Part shown: in pieces, positions 1,183 through 57,614 of the stretch
Numbering within the stretch: position 1 is the stretch's first letter
Layout of the letters: every line of letters begins with the position of its first letter
NCBI GenBank assembly: GCA_947503575.1
Contig: CANNDZ010000001.1
Span: forward strand, 744,001 to 808,000
DNA: 64,000 bases
Source of the DNA: an uncultured Kordiimonas sp.
GTDB taxonomy: Bacteria; Pseudomonadota; Alphaproteobacteria; Sphingomonadales; Kordiimonadaceae
Direction: 5' to 3'
The notes under the pieces: model-generated
Told to the model about the DNA's origin: nothing
Databases searched by the model: none
The model's input: only the letters and a program-made list of their open reading frames with translations
Position numbers and translations under genes: made by a program

Positions 1183-1498
1183 AGTTGTTCTCCGGCCCCT
1201 GATCGAGAATGATTGCTTTGTAATACGTACACTCTGGAGTTGAATGTAGGCACTTTCAAGAGGCGATTACCAGATGACTGGGCATCTGAAGATGTCAGGC
1301 AAGCCCAAGAAACCCTGAAGAAGGATGAGATTTAGCCACAATTTGCCTGTGTGCCTCGCTCAACTGATTGGGCTTCAGAGATGTTCTGTGATGGTCGGGT
1401 TGCGTGAGGCTCTTGTTTATTTTTGGGTGGCGATGATGCGCGGTGCTTTGATCAAGAAATAGACCGCCCGATAATGTGGCATTCAGCATTACGTTCGC
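1183..1498. other. intergenic region holding a decayed repeat fragment
   Basis: No gene supported. The 64-aa minus-strand ORF here has no recognisable features. Bases 1391-1450 resemble the 5' end of the PD40 gene at 4.8 kb and its remnant at 4.0 kb. The rest shows only a short inverted pair (aagcccaa / ttgggctt) around 1300-1375. Confidence 0.5.
1391..1450 (+). repeat. third, diverged copy of the PD40 gene 5' end
   Basis: This stretch aligns with 4019-4078 and 4761-4820 through shared strings such as cttgtttatttttgg and gatgatgcgcggtgcttt, with scattered substitutions and a 1-base gap. It covers only the segment around the PD40 gene start codon; flanking sequence is unrelated. It is a detached relic, not a gene. 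Confidence 0.7.
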
Positions 1499-1972
1499 TT
1501 ACATATCCTGCTGAATAAGTGGCAAATGCTTCTTTACAGGCGAAGACTGAATGATCGAAGAGTTGGTCATCGCAAAGGGGATGATTTTATCAATGAGCGC
1601 TTGCATATCTTCTATCGATGAAACATAGGCGCGGGCGAGGAAACAATCCTCCCCGGTGATGCGGTCACACTCCACAACTTCAGGTATGGTTTGGAGTAAC
1701 TTGGCAACCTTTTCCAATTGCCCCGGAATGGGCCGTATGCGCAGCCAACAGGCAATATGATACCCGAGTGCTTTAGGGTTGATCGAGATCGTATATCCTT
1801 CAATTATGCCTGCTTCTTCAAGCCTTTTTATGCGTTCCGCCACACTGGGCGGCGACAGCCCAATCATGCGACCAAGTTCTGCGTGGCTAATCCTGGCGTT
1901 GTCAAACAGGGCATCCATAATACGCGCGTCGACACTGTCGATTTTGCCACTTTCATAACGAAGGCGTTTCAT
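1499..1972 (-). CDS. Lrp/AsnC family transcriptional regulator
   Basis: 157 aa, normal length for the family. An N-terminal winged helix-turn-helix (about residues 12-60, DARIMDALFDNARISHAELG then LSPPSVAERIKRLEEAGII) is followed by a RAM/AsnC ligand-binding domain (about 65-145). The family controls amino-acid metabolism and transport as oligomers that bind an amino-acid effector. It is divergent from an EamA-type exporter gene 80 bases away across an AT-rich gap, the usual arrangement for a local regulator of its neighbour. That target is inferred from position. Confidence 0.93.
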   Translation of the reverse strand: MKRLRYESGKIDSVDARIMDALFDNARISHAELGRMIGLSPPSVAERIKRLEEAGIIEGYTISINPKALGYHIACWLRIRPIPGQLEKVAKLLQTIPEVVECDRITGEDCFLARAYVSSIEDMQALIDKIIPFAMTNSSIIQSSPVKKHLPLIQQDM

Positions 1973-2052: not shown

Positions 2053-2940
2053 ATGCGTGGCTTAACAACGATGCAGTATTATATGACGCAACCACCGTTC
2101 ACGAAATTGGCCGAGACCTTGCCGCCGCACGCCTGGTTCGGTGTTAGCGCGGTTTTCCATTACCTTGGTCCGTCGTTCGCCGTTCTGTTGTTTCCGGCTA
2201 TTGGTGTATTTGGGGTGGCCTGGATGCGGATTGCGTTTGCGGCGATTATATTTGAACCGTTCACCCGACCAATTGACACCATCCGTACCACCGATAACGC
2301 GACACGTCTTCTGCTCGTTGGGCTGGGCGCCTGCCTTGCCGTCATGAACACGTCATTTTATCTGGCGCTTGATAGGCTTCCTATGAGTTTGGTAGCAGCG
2401 ATTGAGTTCGTTGGTACAATTGGGGTCGCTCTTTACGGCCTGCGTACGCGCCGGAATATGGTTGCATTAGCACTCTCTGTTCTAGGGGTTTTCATCCTTA
2501 TTGACGTCAAATGGTCGAGCGACCCGCTGGGGTTATTTTGGGCTTTTCTGAACGGCGTGTTTTTTGTTGGCTACGTCGTTCTTGGTCATAAAGTGTCTGA
2601 ACATGGTGCCGGCGATGGCATTAAGCTGCTGGGGGCGGCAATGTTGATCGCTTTCATCTTTATTATGCCCGTTGGGTTCGTCGAGGCAGCAGGCGCGTTT
2701 GGCGCTTCTGAACTCATTCTTGCGGGCATTGCCGTTGCGCTCTGTTCGTCTGTTGTGCCGTATGTCTGTGACCAGCTTGCCATGTCGCGCTTACCACGGT
2801 CGAGCTTTGCGCTTCTCCTCGCTTTGCTGCCCGCAACGGCGACGGTCATAGGCGTAATCGTGCTCGGACAAATCCCATCCTCAACAGATATTGCGGGCAT
2901 CGCCTTCGTGATGATCGGTATCGCGATCCACAGGTCGTGA
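2053..2940 (+). CDS. EamA/DMT family transporter, RhtA-like amino-acid exporter candidate
   Basis: 295 aa with about ten hydrophobic segments arranged as two EamA repeats, typical of the drug/metabolite transporter superfamily in the inner membrane. The layout (a FGVAWMRI-type first repeat, a GLGACLAVMNTSFYLALDRLP segment, a second repeat ending in GIAFVMIGIAIH) resembles threonine/homoserine exporters. The divergent Lrp-type gene supports amino-acid efflux, but the substrate is inferred. No strong Shine-Dalgarno precedes the annotated ATG; ATGs at 2071 or 2083 are possible. Confidence 0.85.
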   Translation: MRGLTTMQYYMTQPPFTKLAETLPPHAWFGVSAVFHYLGPSFAVLLFPAIGVFGVAWMRIAFAAIIFEPFTRPIDTIRTTDNATRLLLVGLGACLAVMNTSFYLALDRLPMSLVAAIEFVGTIGVALYGLRTRRNMVALALSVLGVFILIDVKWSSDPLGLFWAFLNGVFFVGYVVLGHKVSEHGAGDGIKLLGAAMLIAFIFIMPVGFVEAAGAFGASELILAGIAVALCSSVVPYVCDQLAMSRLPRSSFALLLALLPATATVIGVIVLGQIPSSTDIAGIAFVMIGIAIHRS

Positions 2941-2983: not shown

Positions 2984-3946
2984 ATGGACTATAAACGGCT
3001 AGGAAAAACGGGGCTTGAGGTCTCAAATATTGCACTCGGGACGATGACATTTGGTGACGGCGCGGATGAAGCGATGAGCGGTGCAGTTTACGCAAAGGCG
3101 CGCGACCATGGCATAAATTTGTTTGATTGCGCCAATGTCTATGCCGGTGGGGAGGCTGAAAAAATTCTTGGCCGCCTCATCAATGGTCACCGTCACGACG
3201 TCATTATAACCTCCAAAGCCTATTATCCGATGAGCGACAAGCCCAACGACCGGGGTCTTAGTCGCAAACATCTGAGGCAAAACCTGGATGCCAGTCTCCA
3301 ACGCCTCAATATAGACTATATAGATATCTATTTTCTCCACGGGTTCGATACCATGACGCCTCTTGAGGAGAGTATTAGCGCGCTGGCCGATTTTGTACGC
3401 GAGGGCAAGATACTTTACCTCGGTATCAGCAACTTTGCGGCGTGGCAGGTGATGAAAGCAATCAGCGTCGCAAAGGCGTTGGGCACAGATATCCACTGCA
3501 TACAACCCATGTACAATCTCCTTAAGAGGCAGGCGGAGGTAGAACTTTTCCCAATGGCGGCATCTGAAGACCTTGGCGTGCTGGCTTATGGTCCGGTTGC
3601 CGGCGGGCTTTTGACAGGCAAGTATCTTGCGGGCCAGCCACAGGAGGGACGGTTTAATGACAGTAAGGATTATCAGGAGCGATATAAAGGCGACCTGATT
3701 GCAAACTCAGTGGCAAAATTTAATATGCTTGCTGAAGAATACGGACATAAACCTTCTAGTCTCGCAATAGCGTGGGCAGCATCTCATCCCTCGGTTACTG
3801 CGCCGCTCATTGGTGCCAGAACACCCGAGCAATTGACAGATGGCCTTGCCGCCAGCGAGGTTCCCCAAACAGATGCGCTTTGGCAGGCATTGTCGCGGCT
3901 CGTTCCCGCGCCTGCCGCTGCAAATGACAGAAATGACGAAGACTGA
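2984..3946 (+). CDS. aldo/keto reductase
   Basis: 320 aa counted from the ATG at 2984, which has a purine-rich ribosome site upstream; the ORF track extends to a TTG at 2954. An (alpha/beta)8 NADPH-dependent oxidoreductase that reduces aldehydes or ketones. The catalytic tetrad is visible: Asp48 and Tyr53 (NLFDCANVYAGG), Lys78 (IITSKAYY), His119 (IYFLHGF). SNF and the GPVAGGLLTGK segment match the YajO/aryl-alcohol-dehydrogenase-like branch. Physiological substrate unknown. A 29-base stretch of its 3' part (3783-3811) is repeated at 4682-4710, part of the local duplication. Confidence 0.93.
   Translation: MDYKRLGKTGLEVSNIALGTMTFGDGADEAMSGAVYAKARDHGINLFDCANVYAGGEAEKILGRLINGHRHDVIITSKAYYPMSDKPNDRGLSRKHLRQNLDASLQRLNIDYIDIYFLHGFDTMTPLEESISALADFVREGKILYLGISNFAAWQVMKAISVAKALGTDIHCIQPMYNLLKRQAEVELFPMAASEDLGVLAYGPVAGGLLTGKYLAGQPQEGRFNDSKDYQERYKGDLIANSVAKFNMLAEEYGHKPSSLAIAWAASHPSVTAPLIGARTPEQLTDGLAASEVPQTDALWQALSRLVPAPAAANDRNDED
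3783..3811 (+). repeat. left copy of short AKR-derived repeat
   Basis: Bases inside the AKR gene (ctcatccctcggttactg then cgccgctcatt) recur at 4682-4710 with a single mismatch. The match ends exactly where the second copy jumps to sequence matching 3969 onwards. It marks the left edge of a tandem duplication whose second unit lost about 157 bases. Confidence 0.85.
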
Positions 3947-3968
3947 TTGCGGTAATAAAGGATGCAAC

Positions 3969-4188
3969 AAATCCATGGTCAAAGCCGTAACGTCTACTGC
4001 ATTGACTTTACCCTGCATGATCGGGTTGACTTATGGTCTCGTTTATTTTTGGGGTGGTGATGATGCGCGGTGCTTTACTTTTTTCATTTCTTTTTCACGC
4101 GCGGTAACGACATCATGTGGGTTGATGCGCAAATATTGGATAGCTATCGAGGCCAATAGAGGAACGGCGCTTCCATTTGCAAATTGGC
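3969..4188 (+). pseudogene. PD40 gene remnant with 836-bp internal deletion
   Basis: This copy matches 4711-4837 (upstream region and the 5' end of the intact PD40 gene) and then jumps directly to 5666-5766 (its 3' end). The junction is an 8-base direct repeat, TTCTTTTT, present in the intact gene at 4830-4837 and 5666-5673, exactly 836 bases apart. Because 836 is not a multiple of three, the remnant's frame is broken and it stops after about 14 codons at 4105. The ORF track reads through part of it in another frame as an artificial N-terminal extension of the VOC gene. Confidence 0.9.
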
Positions 4189-4250
4189 CCACCCAAAAAA
4201 ATGCAGTAAACCTGTTACAACAAACAATTGTCGAAAGGGGACCCTGCAGC

Positions 4251-4667
4251 ATGATTGCCTATGTCACTGTCGGTGCTGATGACATCGCGCGCGCGAAACG
4301 CTTTTACTCTGCGTTTCTGCCAGCCCTTGATTACGAACTGACAGAGAGCACAGAGGGCCTCGCTTATGCGCTGCCCCAACAGGCGGGCCAATCAGTTTGT
4401 TCGCCGGATTTGTATGTTAAGCCAACCTTCGATGGACGGCCGGCCTCCGCCGGGAACGGTGCGATGATCGCGTTTGAGGCTCGCAGTCAACAGCAGGTTC
4501 GTGACCTTCACGCCGCCGCGCTTTCCGCGGGCGGCCAGGATGAGGGCCAGCCGGGCTTCCGTGCAAGGTATGGACCCCATTTTTATGTCAGCTACCTGCG
4601 CGACCCTCAAGGCAACAAGATCGCCCTGTTCTCCAGCGATCCGAACGAACCGGGGCGAGACGGATAA
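4251..4667 (+). CDS. VOC family protein (glyoxalase/bleomycin-resistance fold)
   Basis: 138 aa from the ATG at 4251, preceded by GAAAGGGG about ten bases upstream. The 275-aa ORF in the track runs back through the PD40 remnant and should not be used. One vicinal-oxygen-chelate domain: start MIAYVTVGADDIARAKRFYS, end YVSYLRDPQGNKIALFSS. Members bind a metal and act as lyases, dioxygenases or resistance proteins; this one carries no signal peptide and is presumably cytoplasmic. Substrate unknown. It lies between the two units of the scarred duplication. Confidence 0.88.
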   Translation: MIAYVTVGADDIARAKRFYSAFLPALDYELTESTEGLAYALPQQAGQSVCSPDLYVKPTFDGRPASAGNGAMIAFEARSQQQVRDLHAAALSAGGQDEGQPGFRARYGPHFYVSYLRDPQGNKIALFSSDPNEPGRDG

Positions 4668-4681
4668 GGCGGTGCTTCGCG

Positions 4682-4710
4682 CTCATCCCTCGGTTACTGC
4701 GACGCTCATT
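4682..4710 (+). repeat. right copy of AKR-derived repeat, joined to the PD40 upstream region
   Basis: Matches 3783-3811 of the aldo/keto reductase gene. The next base (4711) matches 3969, so 157 bases (3812-3968), including the AKR 3' end and its stop, are missing from this copy. It is non-coding here and lies in the leader of the PD40 gene. Confidence 0.85.
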
Positions 4711-4804
4711 AAATTCATGGTCAAAGCCGTAACGTCTACTGCATTGACTTTACCCTGCGCGATCGGGTTGACTTATGGTCTCGTTTATTTTTGGGGTGGT
4801 GATG

Positions 4805-5737
4805 ATGCGCGTTGTTTTGCTTTTTTCAATTCTTTTTGGTGTCTTTAGTCCATCTGCTTTTGCCCAGGACGCTTCTAATCAGAACGACTGGCCCGAGCTC
4901 AAGGGTGACTATTTGGGGCAGCCGGTGCCGGGAACCACGCCGCAGGTTTTTGCCCCCGGCCTCATCTCGCTTGATGGCGAGCGGGAGCTGAACTCCGTTT
5001 TCTCGCCGGATGGGCGCATTTTCATGTTCTCCCGCGTGGTAGAAGGCACCTTCAAGATGTTTTTCAGCTTTCGCCGCAATGATGGCACCTGGCAGGCACC
5101 GCGCATGGCCGCGCTTTCGAGGACATTTCCCGCCCACCGGGATGTGGACATGGTGTTTTCACCGGACGGTGACTGGCTGTATTTTATCTCTGACCGGCCG
5201 CTCAAGGGCTATTCGCTGGAGCGCTATAATATTTGGCGCAGCCGCATCACGCCCGATGGCCTGCATGACCCAGAGCCCCTTGGGGCGCACATTAATGGCC
5301 CCGGCCATGAGCTGTATCCCATGATGGTCGGCGATGGCAGCCTCTACTTCTCTGCCGTGCGGGACAACAGCCTTGGCCGGCGCGACAGCTACCGCGCGCA
5401 GTACGCAAATGGCAAATTTGAAACGCCGGTTAATCTGGGGCCCGGCATCAACAGCGACGTGGACGAGGGCGACATTTACGTCAGCTCGGATGAAAGCTAC
5501 ATCATTCATGTGGCATCAGGCAGGCTGGATGGTTTGGGCGACGGTGACCTTTATATCAGCTTCCGCCAGGCGGACGGCACCTGGGGCCAAGGTGTGAACA
5601 TGGGCCCCAACATCAACACAGACGGGATTGATTATTGCCCGATGGTAACTCCAGACGGGAAATACTTCTTTTTCACGCGTGGTAACGACATCATGTGGGT
5701 TGATGCGCAGATATTGGATAGCTATCGCAGCCAGTAG
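4805..5737 (+). CDS. secreted PD40/TolB-like beta-propeller protein
   Basis: 310 aa from the ATG at 4805, placed five bases after GGGGTGG and giving a clean signal peptide (MRVVLLFSILFGVFSPSAFA, cut before QDA). The track start at 4775 would add ten residues. The mature protein has repeated PD40/WD40-like blades: FSPDGRIFMFSR, FSPDGDWLYFISDR, SSDESYIIHVASGR, TPDGKYFFFTRG. Such periplasmic propellers bind proteins or polysaccharides; no catalytic residues can be assigned. Its flanks are duplicated upstream, where a deleted copy survives, so the gene may once have been present twice. Confidence 0.85.
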   Translation: MRVVLLFSILFGVFSPSAFAQDASNQNDWPELKGDYLGQPVPGTTPQVFAPGLISLDGERELNSVFSPDGRIFMFSRVVEGTFKMFFSFRRNDGTWQAPRMAALSRTFPAHRDVDMVFSPDGDWLYFISDRPLKGYSLERYNIWRSRITPDGLHDPEPLGAHINGPGHELYPMMVGDGSLYFSAVRDNSLGRRDSYRAQYANGKFETPVNLGPGINSDVDEGDIYVSSDESYIIHVASGRLDGLGDGDLYISFRQADGTWGQGVNMGPNINTDGIDYCPMVTPDGKYFFFTRGNDIMWVDAQILDSYRSQ

Positions 5738-5847
5738 AGAAACCGACCTTCAATTTACAAATTGGCTTGAACCATAAAGGCGCGTTCAATGAAAGAGCCG
5801 ACCCTAAGCGTAAAAGTGTAACTATTTTCGCCCATTCTGGAGGGAAC

Positions 5848-8136: not shown

Positions 8137-9228
8137 GTGGTTGTGCGAAAGTTCAGTTTTTTCTTCCTGATCGCCGCTCTTGTGTCAACAGCGCCAAACG
8201 CAGGCGCCGAAGACTATGAATACCGGACAATCCGCGATCCCCGTAAGCTGACGGACGAACAATCGACCAGGGCAGCCGCCAACTATCAGCGCTATTGCTC
8301 GCTGTGCCACGGCGCGGACAGGCAGGGGTATGTGAACGATCACGCCCCTTCGTTGCGCAGCAAAAGTCTTTTCAGTTCCGGTGTGCCGCACGAGGTGCTG
8401 CGCCCCATCCAGTATGGTCGGGATGGCACGCCCATGGGCGGCTATCTCGATGAAGTGGGCGGGCCGCTGACGCTTGATGAAACCTGGGATCTGACCTATT
8501 GGCTGTTTTGGCAGGCCGACACCGAGCGTGTGCGTATCACCAAAGAGCTGGTGCAAGGTGATCCCGCGCGCGGCAGGGACCTGTATGCCGAGCACTGCAC
8601 CGAATGCCACGGCGCAAACGGCGAGGGTGTGACCGCGCCCGCGCTTGGCAACGCCTCTGCGCTGTCGCACAACTCTGACGAATTTATCCGCTATGCGATC
8701 CGCGAAGGGCGCGACGGCACGCCGATGCAGCCCTGGAAAGATATATTATCGTCCACAGATATTGATAACCTGACGGCGTTCCTCAGGAGCCGTGCCAGCG
8801 GCTGGGAGCAGTCCAAGGTGGTGCTGCGGGACGTGCCGACGCCCGACCAGTATGTCATCAACAAAGCGGGCGACGACCCGGACTTTGACCTGCAGGATGG
8901 CCTTTATGTGTCCTCGCCTGACCTGTTGCGGGCGCTGGAGGCAAAGAACCGGATGGTTCTTTTGGACACCCGCGTCACATCTGTTTGGCAACGCGTACAC
9001 ATCGAAGGGGCCGTGCCGCTACCCTATTATGTGGATCTTGACGATGTGGTCGCTGATTTGCCGAGAGATGTGCAGATTGTGGCTTATTGTTCCTGCCCGC
9101 GCGCGGCGGCAGATCATGTGGTGGGGCAACTTAGGGAGCGTGGCTTTACCCGCACGGCCACCCTGTATGAGGGTATTTTTGGCTGGATGAACATGGGCTT
9201 TCCGGTCGTCAACGGTAAATCCCAATAG
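8137..9228 (+). CDS. periplasmic diheme cytochrome c fused to a rhodanese domain
   Basis: 363 aa with a signal peptide (residues 1-24, cut after NAGA). Two class I cytochrome c domains follow, with CSLCH at 54-58 and CTECH at 154-158; each is followed by GRDGTPM, whose Met is the likely axial ligand. Residues about 255-355 form a rhodanese-like domain (VLLDTRVTSVWQRVHIEGA) with the catalytic loop YCSCPRAAAD, which retains the nucleophile-position Cys. An electron-transfer/sulfur role is inferred. Start is GTG at 8137 or GTG at 8143; both have purine-rich sites upstream. Confidence 0.9.
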   Translation: MVVRKFSFFFLIAALVSTAPNAGAEDYEYRTIRDPRKLTDEQSTRAAANYQRYCSLCHGADRQGYVNDHAPSLRSKSLFSSGVPHEVLRPIQYGRDGTPMGGYLDEVGGPLTLDETWDLTYWLFWQADTERVRITKELVQGDPARGRDLYAEHCTECHGANGEGVTAPALGNASALSHNSDEFIRYAIREGRDGTPMQPWKDILSSTDIDNLTAFLRSRASGWEQSKVVLRDVPTPDQYVINKAGDDPDFDLQDGLYVSSPDLLRALEAKNRMVLLDTRVTSVWQRVHIEGAVPLPYYVDLDDVVADLPRDVQIVAYCSCPRAAADHVVGQLRERGFTRTATLYEGIFGWMNMGFPVVNGKSQ

Positions 9229-9660: not shown

Positions 9661-9789
9661 GAAAAGGCCCGCCACACTTTTGATGGTGATCTGACTATAG
9701 TGTATTCGGTGTAGGTGGCATAGCGGTCAGGACGCCACGGGTAACACGCGGCGCGTGCGGCGAAACCGGATAAAGCGGGAGGAACGGCC

Positions 9790-10350
9790 ATGGCAGAGCA
9801 AGCAACTTTCACGGCCATGCAGGACGGCACCCTTGAGGACTGGCAAATCATCGGCGCCGCCCACATGGAAGAGTTCAAGAACACAGCTGATCGTTTCATC
9901 GGCATGTTAAAGTCGCTGGAGCAATACACGCTGGGCTTTGCCTGTGACCAATTGCAACATTCTTTGATGGCCGGCACCCTGGCGCGCCGGGCAGGCGCAT
10001 CGGATGAAGAAATTGTCATCGCTCTGTGTCACGATATCGGTAAAGCCATCAATGTGCCCAACCACGGCCCCATCGCTGCGGAGATGATGCGCCCCTATAT
10101 CAGCGACAACAGCTATCACGTTATCCGCAACCATCAAGCGTTTCAGGGTGAGCACTATTATCATTATCTGGGGGCACCAACGGACCTGCGCAAACAATGG
10201 AAAGACGAGCCCTGGTATGACCTCGCCGTCAAACTGGTAGATGAATGGGATGCGCCTGCCTTTGATCCGGATTTTGAAGTCGACAGCCTGGAAAGCTTTA
10301 TCCCCCTGATGCGCAAAGTGTTTCACGACAAGCCTGTCGCTGCCGGGTGA
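9790..10350 (+). CDS. HD-domain protein (putative metal-dependent hydrolase or oxygenase)
   Basis: 186 aa. Histidine/aspartate metal ligands are visible in order: QHSL, CHDIGK, NHGPIA, RNHQAF, and a late Asp in VDEWDAP. This pattern fits the HD superfamily. The extra histidines between HD and the last Asp recall the mixed-valence di-iron branch (PhnZ/TmpB type), but the Tyr/Glu pair that PhnZ places before the first His is absent (Phe at the Glu position), so phosphonate oxygenase activity is not claimed. Cytoplasmic. Ribosome site GGGAGGAA before the ATG. Confidence 0.82.
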   Translation: MAEQATFTAMQDGTLEDWQIIGAAHMEEFKNTADRFIGMLKSLEQYTLGFACDQLQHSLMAGTLARRAGASDEEIVIALCHDIGKAINVPNHGPIAAEMMRPYISDNSYHVIRNHQAFQGEHYYHYLGAPTDLRKQWKDEPWYDLAVKLVDEWDAPAFDPDFEVDSLESFIPLMRKVFHDKPVAAG

Positions 10351-54263: not shown

Positions 54264-56300
54264 ATGGCCAGAAAAACCAGGCGCGTGTTGAAACGACTAG
54301 GTGGTGGTGTCGTCTTTTTGGCAGTGCTGTATTTGGTTGCCAGCCCTTTTGTTGTGCCAATGATCGCGCAGCGATTTGTCAGTGATTTTGACGATGAGTT
54401 GAGCGTCAGGTTTGGATCAGCGTTATTCCATCCCCTTACTTTTGACCTTCTGGTCGATGACCTGGAGCTGCTGGGGCCTGATAAAACAGTTCTTGCGCAA
54501 ATTCCGTCTGCGCGGCTGCCACTTGATGTGAGTGACTTGCTTGCAGGAACAGGCACTTTCACGTCAGAGTCCCTGAACGCAAGGTGGCGTAACGAGGATC
54601 AGCAAGTCGTTGTTACCCTATCCGATATTGCACCAGCCCTCATTGCGCCCTTTGGTAAAACATTGGGTATCGAAATAGCCGCAGGCCGTTTTAGCGCACA
54701 GATTAATGCTCCGATTGAGGAGGGGCCGATTACCGGCAGCATTTCGGTTCGGGACCTTCAGGCACGCAGTACAGACATGCAAACGGATTTCAGCCTCAAG
54801 GCCCTGACACTGGATAGCGTTGAATTTGATCCAGAGGCGCAAACGCTAACTGTCGAGGACGTTACCATAGCCAGTTTGCGGGCCCGCAACGAGGACGCGC
54901 CAGCGGCCCTAAATGCTGAGGCGGTCACACTGGATAGCGCTACCTTTGACCTGGATGCACAAACGCTCACGACCAAGGACGTCGCCATAACAAGCCTGGA
55001 GGTGCGCAGCGGGGATGCGCCGGAGGCTCTAAACGCTGAGGTGGTCACACTGGATAGCGCCACCTATGACCTGGATGCACAAACGCTGACGACCAAGGAC
55101 ATTGCCATAACAAGCCTGGAGGTGCGCAGCGGGGACGCACCAGTGGCTTTTAACGCTGGAACGCTGACCCTGAACAGCGCTACCTTCGACACGGATGCGC
55201 AAACATTGAACGTGGGGCGTGTGGTGCTAACCAACCCCCTATTGGACAATATTGCTCTTCCGACACCCGGTCTTATCGCCCGTAGCCGTGCTGAAAAGCG
55301 CGCTGCAGAATTGCAGATTGCAGTCGACGGCATCGACGTTATAAACGCCGAGATAAATATGCTTGGGCACGGCCCTGATGCCATGCCAGTGCAGATCACC
55401 ACACCAACCATGACCCTGAGCGATCTTCGGTACGGGACAGATTGGTCCGGCACCCTAGAAGCTGCTGGCATGGTGAGTATAGGCGATACAGGTAACCCAG
55501 GCGGCACAACAAGCCCATTTACCCTTGCAGCACAGGTGGATAGCGCAGAGGCGGCAACCGGCCAGATAAGTCTGGTGGTTGACCGGCTGGATCATGCAGT
55601 GTTGTCCCCCGGCCTGTTCACTCTACTGGGGCGCGCATCTGCGGCGGGAACCTTCTATGCTGACCTGGAAGCCAGCAGCACAAATGGTGACCTGGATGGG
55701 TCACTATCCCTATTGTTCGACCAGTGGGAATGGGGTGACCTAAATCCGGATTATAGCGGCGAGCCGATCCCCTTACGCAAAGCGTTTAATATCTTACGCG
55801 GGCGCGGTGGGCGTGTGCGCATGAGCCTGCCGCTGGAGGGTAATCTAGACGAACCAACCTTCAGGGGGGATGCCGTGGTGCGCCGGGCAACCAATCGCGC
55901 CATCGGTGATATTGTGGGGGCTCCGTTCAAGCTTCTTGGTGCTCTCATACCCGGTGGCGGCAAGAGCGACCTGGAACTGAACAAGATCGAGTTTGATGCT
56001 GGTTCAGCTGAACTCACACCCCTTGACCGGTCCAAACTCAGCGCACTCGCCGTCGCGCTCATCGAGCGTCCCAGTCTTCAGCTTGAAATACAAGGTGCTG
56101 CATCTGAAAAGCTGGACTTCCCAAATACAGTCGCGCAACCGGGCGAATTGGCGGCCCTAAGCACCAAAAGAGCTGATGCTGTTAAGGTATATCTCATCGT
56201 TGCCGGTGTTGATGAGGCACGCTTAAGCACAACGATAAACACCACTTCTACGGAAAACGGAAAGGGCAAGCCTGTTGTGCGGCTAACCATCATCTCCTAG
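54264..56300 (+). CDS. DUF748/AsmA-like protein with internal 40-residue repeats
   Basis: 678 aa from the ATG at 54264; the track start is a TTG. One N-terminal membrane anchor (VVFLAVLYLVASPFVVPMIAQ) precedes a periplasmic region typical of DUF748 (FHPLTFDLLVDDLELLGPDKTVLAQIPSARLPLDVSDLL). Around residues 181-325 are three to four tandem 40-residue repeats. The C-terminal part has an OmpA-like pattern (LNKIEFDAGSAELTPLDRSKLSALA, then ALSTKRADAVKVYLIVAGV). AsmA/DUF748 proteins bridge inner and outer membrane or transport lipid; this role is inferred. Confidence 0.85.
   Translation: MARKTRRVLKRLGGGVVFLAVLYLVASPFVVPMIAQRFVSDFDDELSVRFGSALFHPLTFDLLVDDLELLGPDKTVLAQIPSARLPLDVSDLLAGTGTFTSESLNARWRNEDQQVVVTLSDIAPALIAPFGKTLGIEIAAGRFSAQINAPIEEGPITGSISVRDLQARSTDMQTDFSLKALTLDSVEFDPEAQTLTVEDVTIASLRARNEDAPAALNAEAVTLDSATFDLDAQTLTTKDVAITSLEVRSGDAPEALNAEVVTLDSATYDLDAQTLTTKDIAITSLEVRSGDAPVAFNAGTLTLNSATFDTDAQTLNVGRVVLTNPLLDNIALPTPGLIARSRAEKRAAELQIAVDGIDVINAEINMLGHGPDAMPVQITTPTMTLSDLRYGTDWSGTLEAAGMVSIGDTGNPGGTTSPFTLAAQVDSAEAATGQISLVVDRLDHAVLSPGLFTLLGRASAAGTFYADLEASSTNGDLDGSLSLLFDQWEWGDLNPDYSGEPIPLRKAFNILRGRGGRVRMSLPLEGNLDEPTFRGDAVVRRATNRAIGDIVGAPFKLLGALIPGGGKSDLELNKIEFDAGSAELTPLDRSKLSALAVALIERPSLQLEIQGAASEKLDFPNTVAQPGELAALSTKRADAVKVYLIVAGVDEARLSTTINTTSTENGKGKPVVRLTIIS
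54804..55240 (+). repeat. 120-bp in-frame tandem repeats in the DUF748 gene
   Basis: Units start at 54804, 54924, 55044 and 55164 with an exact 120-base period; each codes for a 40-residue block of the form VTLDSATFDLDAQTLTTKD followed by an AITSLEVRSGDAP turn. Units 2 and 3 are nearly identical at the DNA level; unit 1 is more diverged and unit 4 is truncated. Confidence 0.9.
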
Positions 56301-56368
56301 CGCAGCGTCGCGTTGACATATGCTAAGGTGCGGCCCACATCCTAATAACGACATAGGGGAAGCGACAC

Positions 56369-56953
56369 ATGAAAAAACAGGCTTCAAGCTTCGAATGGCG
56401 CAAAGTTGGTGCCGAGGTTGGCGCGATTGTTTTTGCGGTTTTGCTGGCCCTGTGGCTGGAAGGCTGGCGCGAGGACGTGGAACGCCAAGAGCGTGCAGAC
56501 CTGTTTCTGGACCGAATTCGCGCTGAAATCTCCCAAAACCGGGAAAACTTGCAGGAAACCATCCACCAGCATGAAGACTATATGGCCGGTCTTGAAGCTG
56601 CGATCAAAGACGGTAATGCGTCCATAGAAGCGGTTGGCCCCTTTTTGCAAATTGAAGGCAGTGCAACCAACAGTTCAGCCTGGCAGTCCGCCAAGATGTC
56701 TCAATCAATCAGCCAAATGCCGCCTGAAATGGTCGCCGATCTTGCATCCATATACGATACGCAAACCTACTACGCTAACTACCTCGCCTTTTTCTTCCAC
56801 AACTATACCGAACTCGCCACAGCCATCGAAGTTAATGACCGACCGATTGTTTCTGCGCGTAAGTTTTATCGGCATCTGGATGTTACCAATACGCTCGCCG
56901 AACAGTTACTTCGGCGGTATGACGCCTTCTTGCAACAGCAAAGCGGTAACTAA
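56369..56953 (+). CDS. small single-TM protein, first of a duplicated pair
   Basis: 194 aa. A short cytoplasmic start (KKQASSFEWRKVGAEVG), one transmembrane helix (AIVFAVLLALWLEGW) and a helical, coiled-coil-prone remainder (REDVERQERADLFLDRIRAEISQNRENLQETIHQHEDYM), with an AWQSAKMSQSISQMPPEMV stretch shared with the next gene. The layout resembles small inner-membrane proteins of the DUF6090 type, which is a guess. Upstream and 5' coding DNA is almost the same as for the next gene; the rest is about half identical. Function unknown. Confidence 0.75.
   Translation: MKKQASSFEWRKVGAEVGAIVFAVLLALWLEGWREDVERQERADLFLDRIRAEISQNRENLQETIHQHEDYMAGLEAAIKDGNASIEAVGPFLQIEGSATNSSAWQSAKMSQSISQMPPEMVADLASIYDTQTYYANYLAFFFHNYTELATAIEVNDRPIVSARKFYRHLDVTNTLAEQLLRRYDAFLQQQSGN
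56396..56502 (+). repeat. 107-bp identical block, copy 1
   Basis: Identical base for base to 57021-57127 (from tggcgcaaagttggtgccga to gagcgtgcagacct). It covers the transmembrane and early coiled-coil codons of the two paralogues. Confidence 0.92.
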
Positions 56954-56993
56954 TTTATTCCACGTCCTGATAACGACTTAGGGGAGGCGATAC

Positions 56994-57614
56994 ATGAAAA
57001 AACAGGGTTCGAGTTTCGATTGGCGCAAAGTTGGTGCCGAGGTTGGCGCGATTGTTTTTGCGGTTTTGCTGGCCCTGTGGCTGGAAGGCTGGCGCGAGGA
57101 CGTGGAACGCCAAGAGCGTGCAGACCTTTTTCTGAACCGTATAAAAACGGAGGTTCAGGAAAACCGGGATGACCTGCGGTCTGCGATGACAGAGAACCAA
57201 GCATATATCGACGGCTTAAAAGCTGTGTTAGATAGCGAGCAAATAGAGTTTACCGACCTCATGCCGTTCATTCAGGCTGAAAGTGCAAGTACGCAGGATG
57301 CCGCCTGGCAGTCTGCTCAGATGACACAAACCATTGCCAACATGCCTGCTGACGCTGTGGCCTCTTTGGCAAAAGTTTATGATTTGCAGGACGAATATGT
57401 CGATTACATGCGGATGTTTTTTCAACGGTTTATCGATATGGTTATGGAAATGCGCGCAGAGGAATCCCGCGAGCTGGGCGCCCAGCGATTTAGGCAGCAT
57501 CTATCTGTTAGCAACTCATTGGCGGAACAACTTCTAACCGGCTATGACGCATTTCTGGCAACGCACGGCCTCACCACCAAGGGTGAGAAGCAGGCGGCAG
57601 CTGGCGGCAGTTAA
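56994..57614 (+). CDS. small single-TM protein, second of a duplicated pair
   Basis: 206 aa paralogue of the preceding gene: the same start (MKKQGSSFDWRKVGAEVG), TM helix and EDVERQERADLFLNRI block, then diverging through AWQSAQMTQTIANMPADAV and a unique tail (LTTKGEKQAAAGGS). The 5' UTR (taacgacttaggggaggcga) also copies that of the first gene. Its stop overlaps the stop of the convergent CoA-transferase in a shared TTAA. The two could form a hetero-oligomer; no evidence beyond similarity. Confidence 0.75.
   Translation: MKKQGSSFDWRKVGAEVGAIVFAVLLALWLEGWREDVERQERADLFLNRIKTEVQENRDDLRSAMTENQAYIDGLKAVLDSEQIEFTDLMPFIQAESASTQDAAWQSAQMTQTIANMPADAVASLAKVYDLQDEYVDYMRMFFQRFIDMVMEMRAEESRELGAQRFRQHLSVSNSLAEQLLTGYDAFLATHGLTTKGEKQAAAGGS
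57021..57127 (+). repeat. 107-bp identical block, copy 2
   Basis: Second copy of the block described at 56396-56502. Sequence outside it differs strongly, including at synonymous sites. Confidence 0.92.

Follow-up and report, generated by a model that had tools for sequence, protein, structure and literature searches.

Stacked partial gene copies near tlpA in marine Kordiimonas as probable scars of stepwise gene capture

We find that two colinear repeat units in the DNA of an uncultured Kordiimonas are one layer of an accretion hotspot in marine Kordiimonas, at which arrivals keep landing beside one gene and leave truncated versions of nearby genes. The units are probably scars of the stepwise capture of foreign segments by one-sided homology, followed by small deletions. 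What was originally described as a single tandem duplication becomes one layer of a repeated process.

The entry of single non-mobile genes is usually inferred from gene content, and the joints are normally invisible. At the tlpA locus, the joints leave readable tags whose order should reflect their age, and they do so at one locus in several species. Such tags allow captures to be counted and dated against speciation, and allow us to ask why one spot is reused.

Repeat units and the deletion in PD40

The following features were mapped in the window, that is, the whole 64-kb stretch of DNA that was analysed.

1294-1335, plus strand: weak copy (tag) of the tlpA 3' end, with GAAACCCTGAAGAAGGATGAGATTTAG at its end, a trace of a displaced tlpA end (9.5 bits with a position matrix)
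1391-1451, plus strand: third PD40 remnant (u3), comprising the 5' end of PD40 and its upstream region, at the original PD40 site (85% over 60 bp to unit 1, E 1e-10); the order of tag and then PD40 is as in the relatives G006 and G018
1499-1972, minus strand: AsnC/Lrp regulator, cargo 1 (Pfam PF01037, PF13404)
2053-2940, plus strand: EamA transporter, cargo 1 (Pfam PF00892)
2984-3946, plus strand: aldo/keto reductase (AKR) gene, intact, cargo 1 (Pfam PF00248, 1e-69)
3783-3811, plus strand: AKR stretch that is duplicated at 4682-4710 (28/29 identical)
3812-3968, plus strand: 157 bp kept in unit 1 and absent from unit 2 (AKR 3' end and spacer)
3969-4188, plus strand: unit 1 PD40 remnant, a 127-bp 5' end fused to a 101-bp 3' end, without 836 bp
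4088-4095, plus strand: deletion junction TTCTTTTT, single in unit 1 and double in unit 2 and relatives
4251-4667, plus strand: VOC/glyoxalase-like gene, cargo 2 (Pfam PF00903)
4682-4710, plus strand: AKR fragment at the start of unit 2, adjoining the VOC cargo
4711-5766, plus strand: remainder of unit 2, comprising the PD40 upstream region, an intact PD40 gene (4802-5737; Pfam PF07676; orthologs at 85-86% in G018, G006, and G003), and 29 bp past its stop

Units 1 and 2 are colinear direct copies. Self-comparison of the window places unit 1 at 3783-3811 plus 3969-4188 and unit 2 at 4682-5766, with three matching blocks: 3783-3811 against 4682-4710 (97%), 3969-4095 against 4711-4837 (94% over 127 bp), and 4088-4188 against 5666-5766 (89% over 101 bp). 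These blocks bear out the colinearity claimed in a preliminary description of the window, and the gap at 3812-3968 corresponds to the 157 bp of AKR 3' sequence that it considered lost from unit 2. No clear microhomology or repeat was seen at the joint of this 157-bp deletion in unit 2. Mis-assembly of the region is unlikely because the copies are short and diverge from one another by 6-11%; moreover, the structure fits that of relatives.

PD40 in unit 1 has lost 836 bp between two copies of an 8-bp repeat. The two PD40 blocks of unit 1 overlap by exactly TTCTTTTT, which occurs twice in unit 2 (4830-4837 and 5666-5673), 836 bp apart. The spacings between units 1 and 2 (742 versus 1578) differ by the same 836 bp. 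Full-length PD40 in three relatives (G018, G006, and G003) has TTCTTTTT at both sites, which indicates that the direct repeat predates the deletion and that unit 1 is the deleted form. Spacings, junction, and relatives together confirm the earlier claim of a loss between the copies at 4830 and 5666. The 97-bp remnant that had been described also agrees closely with the remnant frame, which runs from an ATG at 4060 to a stop at 4159. In unit 1, the CAT before the repeat resembles the 3' copy of the relatives (TAT) and not their 5' copy. Thus, the exchange may have taken place 2 or 3 bases upstream of the repeat, and the homology was at least 8 bp. With the repeat at both ends of the undeleted form and a single copy at the junction, this slippage deletion is an ordinary case. 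It shows no difference from other deletions between short direct repeats, whether by replication slippage or annealing, in that 836 bp were lost and one TTCTTTTT was kept.

Unit 1 appears to have decayed late. Over the 72 nt of coding 3' end, the two units differ at five sites, four of which are synonymous. Chance would give a synonymous share of ~17-23% (P 0.004-0.01, from a small sample of five sites). Among the four differences that can be polarised, three are derived in unit 2 and the other is derived in unit 1. As the differences are mostly synonymous and mostly derived in unit 2, unit 1 would have been a working gene for most of the time since separation, and the 836-bp deletion would be late. 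Judged from these five sites only, unit 1 would thus have been functional until late, either as an intact duplicate or within a donor. Past the PD40 stop, identity between the units drops to 23/29.

Cargo genes and a third PD40 remnant

Both AKR and VOC look like acquired genes. Neither has an ortholog in the 19 other genomes of the genus, where the best match reaches ~39% for AKR and ~40-44% for VOC, so that both represent added DNA without orthologs in close relatives. The nearest AKR (59%) is in another family, and VOC orthologs are limited to two other genera within the family, at 84% and 80%. In G025, the arrangement is different, with a VOC gene ~2 kb away from PD40. No donor genome with AKR, PD40, and VOC in that order was found. 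The VOC reading frame also stays open on its 5' side through the unit 1 remnant and into the AKR gene (a 275-aa ORF at 3840-4667). VOC orthologs begin at 4251, and the open frame upstream of this point (3840-4250) is therefore probably due to chance.

A third PD40 remnant, u3, was overlooked in the preliminary description. It lies ~60 bp past the weak tlpA tag, and this order matches that of G006 and G018. In the relatives (G018, G006, and G003), PD40 is located downstream of argH and tlpA and, in most of them, after a small cytochrome-like gene. As in units 1 and 2, ~15 bp upstream of the gene are missing from u3, and these are present in relatives. A V-to-G codon change (GTT to GGT) is common to u3 and unit 1, and u3 retains the bases of G018 at sites where units 1 and 2 carry the same change. 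From its position and shared bases, u3 is best read as a PD40 stump at the old site, with AsnC-EamA-AKR inserted before the next PD40 copy.

We propose that each layer arose by capture. An incoming segment would carry the resident gene, or its end, together with foreign cargo, and a homologous crossover would take place in the shared gene. The other end would join without homology, either because the fragment was circularised (single crossover) or by homology-facilitated illegitimate recombination. After each event, the cargo would be accompanied by one intact gene and one partial copy of the shared gene. Within the window, an event of this kind may have placed AsnC-EamA-AKR before PD40, leaving the 5' remnant at 1391 behind, and a further event may have placed VOC after a PD40 copy, leaving the AKR fragment and a second PD40. 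The spare PD40 would later have lost its 836 bp between the 8-bp repeats via slippage or annealing. Upstream, the same process acting on tlpA would have produced the 3'-end tags that separate cargo genes in five species. In keeping with such captures, a partial direct copy of a resident gene flanks the added DNA, and the position of the non-homologous joint varies (over ~90 nt in the tlpA tags). The repeats with their orientation and their bias toward 3' ends, the lack of AKR and VOC orthologs in the rest of the genus, and the deletion between repeats that are ancestral are direct observations. From this pattern, we infer how the DNA entered, that a crossover took place, and in what order the events followed. 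Counting against capture, u3 is a 5' end but the tlpA tags are 3' ends, so that the homologous side would have to be the right one at u3 and the left one at the tags.

A tandem duplication within the genome is a possible but unlikely source of the units. It would have copied the AKR 3' end and PD40, with or without VOC, after which the left PD40 lost 836 bp and the right copy lost 157 bp (and the second VOC, if this was included). Tandem duplications are common, and the 3' coding parts of units 1 and 2 share 93% identity, against 80-88% between either unit and the relatives. However, capture accounts for units 1 and 2 with one gain and two deletions, whereas tandem duplication requires at least one additional event, either the loss of the right VOC or an independent insertion of VOC, and it leaves the third remnant and the tlpA tags between cargo unexplained. 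A plain tandem duplication brings no cargo, while one-sided homology gives both cargo and a partial copy, which favours the capture model. Thus, the history put forward in the preliminary description, of duplication followed by slippage deletion, holds in part. For unit 1 it stands, since PD40 is single and intact in the relatives, and the comparison with them for the ancestral order that it had proposed supports the direction from duplication to deletion. A single plain tandem duplication probably does not, given at least two PD40 events (the second evidenced by the remnant at 1391-1451) and the acquired appearance of AKR and VOC. With neither gene having orthologs in the genus, duplication and gene gain were probably one joint event each time.

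Alternatively, the repeats might have been copied because they act as conserved promoters, terminators, or regulatory RNAs, although we regard this as extremely unlikely. The remnant in unit 1 does place the PD40 upstream region just before VOC, which it might drive, and the 91 bp of this region are 97% identical to unit 2. Promoter and terminator signal is, however, no higher than in shuffled controls. The tlpA tags consist of coding sequence and vary in length, and the 1391 remnant points toward the end of a convergent gene. Furthermore, the unit 1 remnant is absent from relatives, which speaks against the possibility, raised in the preliminary description, that the short sequence is a conserved functional element there.

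Copies of the tlpA 3' end

The end of tlpA recurs downstream of the gene in five species. Using the last 153 nt of tlpA as a search model, we find that its last 35-135 nt are repeated between cargo genes, up to six times. The 12 extra copies are distributed as six in G006, three in G018, and one each in G000, G003, and G015. All 12 lie on the tlpA strand, downstream of tlpA, and extend to the stop codon, with similarity ending at, or within ~8 nt of, that codon. This is expected if the copies come from different genomes, with the coding sequence conserved between donor and recipient and the following sequence not. Their starts range from model position 19 to 108, a spread of ~90 nt. Two of the tags are more degenerate (G006 9765-9848 and G018 8640-8712). 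In the window, the score of the tag at 1294-1335 exceeds those of all 2.4 million control positions (maximum 8.7 bits), and in both G006 and G018 a tag occupies the corresponding position, immediately before PD40.

Only the end of tlpA behaves in this way. The first three quarters of the gene matched the gene itself and no repeats, and the last quarter has no copy in 1.2 Mb of control DNA (G000, G006, and G013). We rejected the tag as a general genomic repeat, as none occurs outside the locus in six species or in the control DNA. The absence of tags longer than ~135 nt may reflect the loss of longer repeats by recombination or a need for the remainder of the gene on the homologous side.

Among the genes flanked by tags, G000 has a retropepsin-like protease and G006 a PD-T4-6-like kinase; PD40 itself lies between tags in both G006 and G018. 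Some insertions leave no tag, as in G014, where tlpA is followed by cargo alone. The cargo directly after tlpA in G006 (L026:4301-5572) matches the PD-T4-6 phage-defence kinase (PADLOC, 6e-124). We do not favour reading the locus as a defence island, since this kinase was the only match among the cargo scanned with PADLOC. Two other first cargoes after tlpA are possibly defence-related: a two-gene block in G015 (L116:2583-5179) and, in G014, a GHKL-ATPase-like gene of 621 aa (L028:7311-9176) that has no PADLOC match. An HD-domain gene was also considered as the original neighbour of tlpA. This was not supported, as the gene is absent or distant in outgroups and lies elsewhere in three of six species.

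Phages e14 and 21 integrate at the 3' end of icd, each bringing a replacement 3' end, and islands integrate at tRNA genes. In these elements, displaced direct 3' ends mark the insertions, as do the tags at tlpA. Mobile units might similarly attach at the 3' end of tlpA, each with a replacement 3' end, their recombinase being encoded elsewhere or lost. This would fit tags that are all 3'-terminal, on the same strand, ending at the stop, and only downstream of tlpA. However, the tag starts scatter over ~90 nt with no constant attachment core, and no match to a tyrosine recombinase (PF00589), the type of integrase searched for, was detected at the tlpA locus in six genomes. Together, these two observations disfavour a fixed attachment site. 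The cargo units are also small, and the AKR and PD40 copies would be left unexplained. We therefore consider site-specific integration distinctly unlikely. It is very unlikely that the tlpA 3' end is the attachment site of an undescribed trans-acting capture system that inserts genes singly or in small groups (the PD-T4-6-like gene of G006 among them) with one tag each, in the manner of a cassette array without an integron.

Known systems and similar scars elsewhere

The recombination chemistry needed for capture by one-sided homology is already known. In E. coli, incoming DNA bearing lacZ was integrated mostly by single crossover, with partial lacZ duplications of 109-950 bp (PMC3240628). The layout of resident gene, cargo, and partial copy is the same as here, as is the variable length of the copy, and that system is RecA-dependent and works without a recombinase (PMC3240628). 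It differs in being a laboratory selection at one engineered locus, whereas the Kordiimonas repeats would be natural old scars, with tags of at most ~135 nt and stacked layers. The same paper introduces homology-facilitated illegitimate recombination in S. pneumoniae, A. baylyi, and P. stutzeri, with one homologous and one non-homologous side, and foreign DNA captured beside a shared gene, as we propose (PMC3240628). It differs in that insertion is predicted to be accompanied by deletion of resident DNA. Incoming DNA likewise yields partial duplications in the S. pneumoniae merodiploids formed by natural transformation (PMC3784515). Our literature search returned no description of a multi-tag tlpA hotspot and nothing closer than these two papers.

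Comparable scars are rare elsewhere. The genome-wide rate was estimated from three 400-kb samples, which contained one such scar in G006 and one in G013. In G006, the last 41 bp of a gene that we take to be rimO (C1:899506-899546, in the L161/L162 region) recur 1.06 kb downstream (900564-900604), extending to the stop codon, and a 309-aa calcium-binding-repeat-like gene lies between the copies. In G013, a 248-bp stretch at the end of an RND-type gene and around it is repeated at 91% identity (C1:1213183-1213430 and 1215724-1215971), with the copy lying beyond a 708-aa gene on the opposite strand. In addition, a 103-bp internal fragment of the HD-domain gene in G014 is found 1.5 kb beyond that gene (L205, reverse strand, 2883-2985 and 4648-4750). 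HxlR-like, isochorismatase-like, and VOC-like genes, named by eye, separate the two. These scars suggest that the process is not confined to tlpA, although the tlpA locus is used far more.

Apart from units 1 and 2, the local direct repeats of comparable size in the 64-kb window are just one paralogous gene pair and one tandem repeat within a gene. The pair consists of adjacent genes at 56335-57614, the starts of which share a 183-bp stretch at 93% identity. We considered this repeat (56335/56960) as a scar and rejected it as an ordinary paralogous gene pair. The tandem repeat, at 54799-55204, has a 120-bp unit and lies within a 683-aa reading frame.
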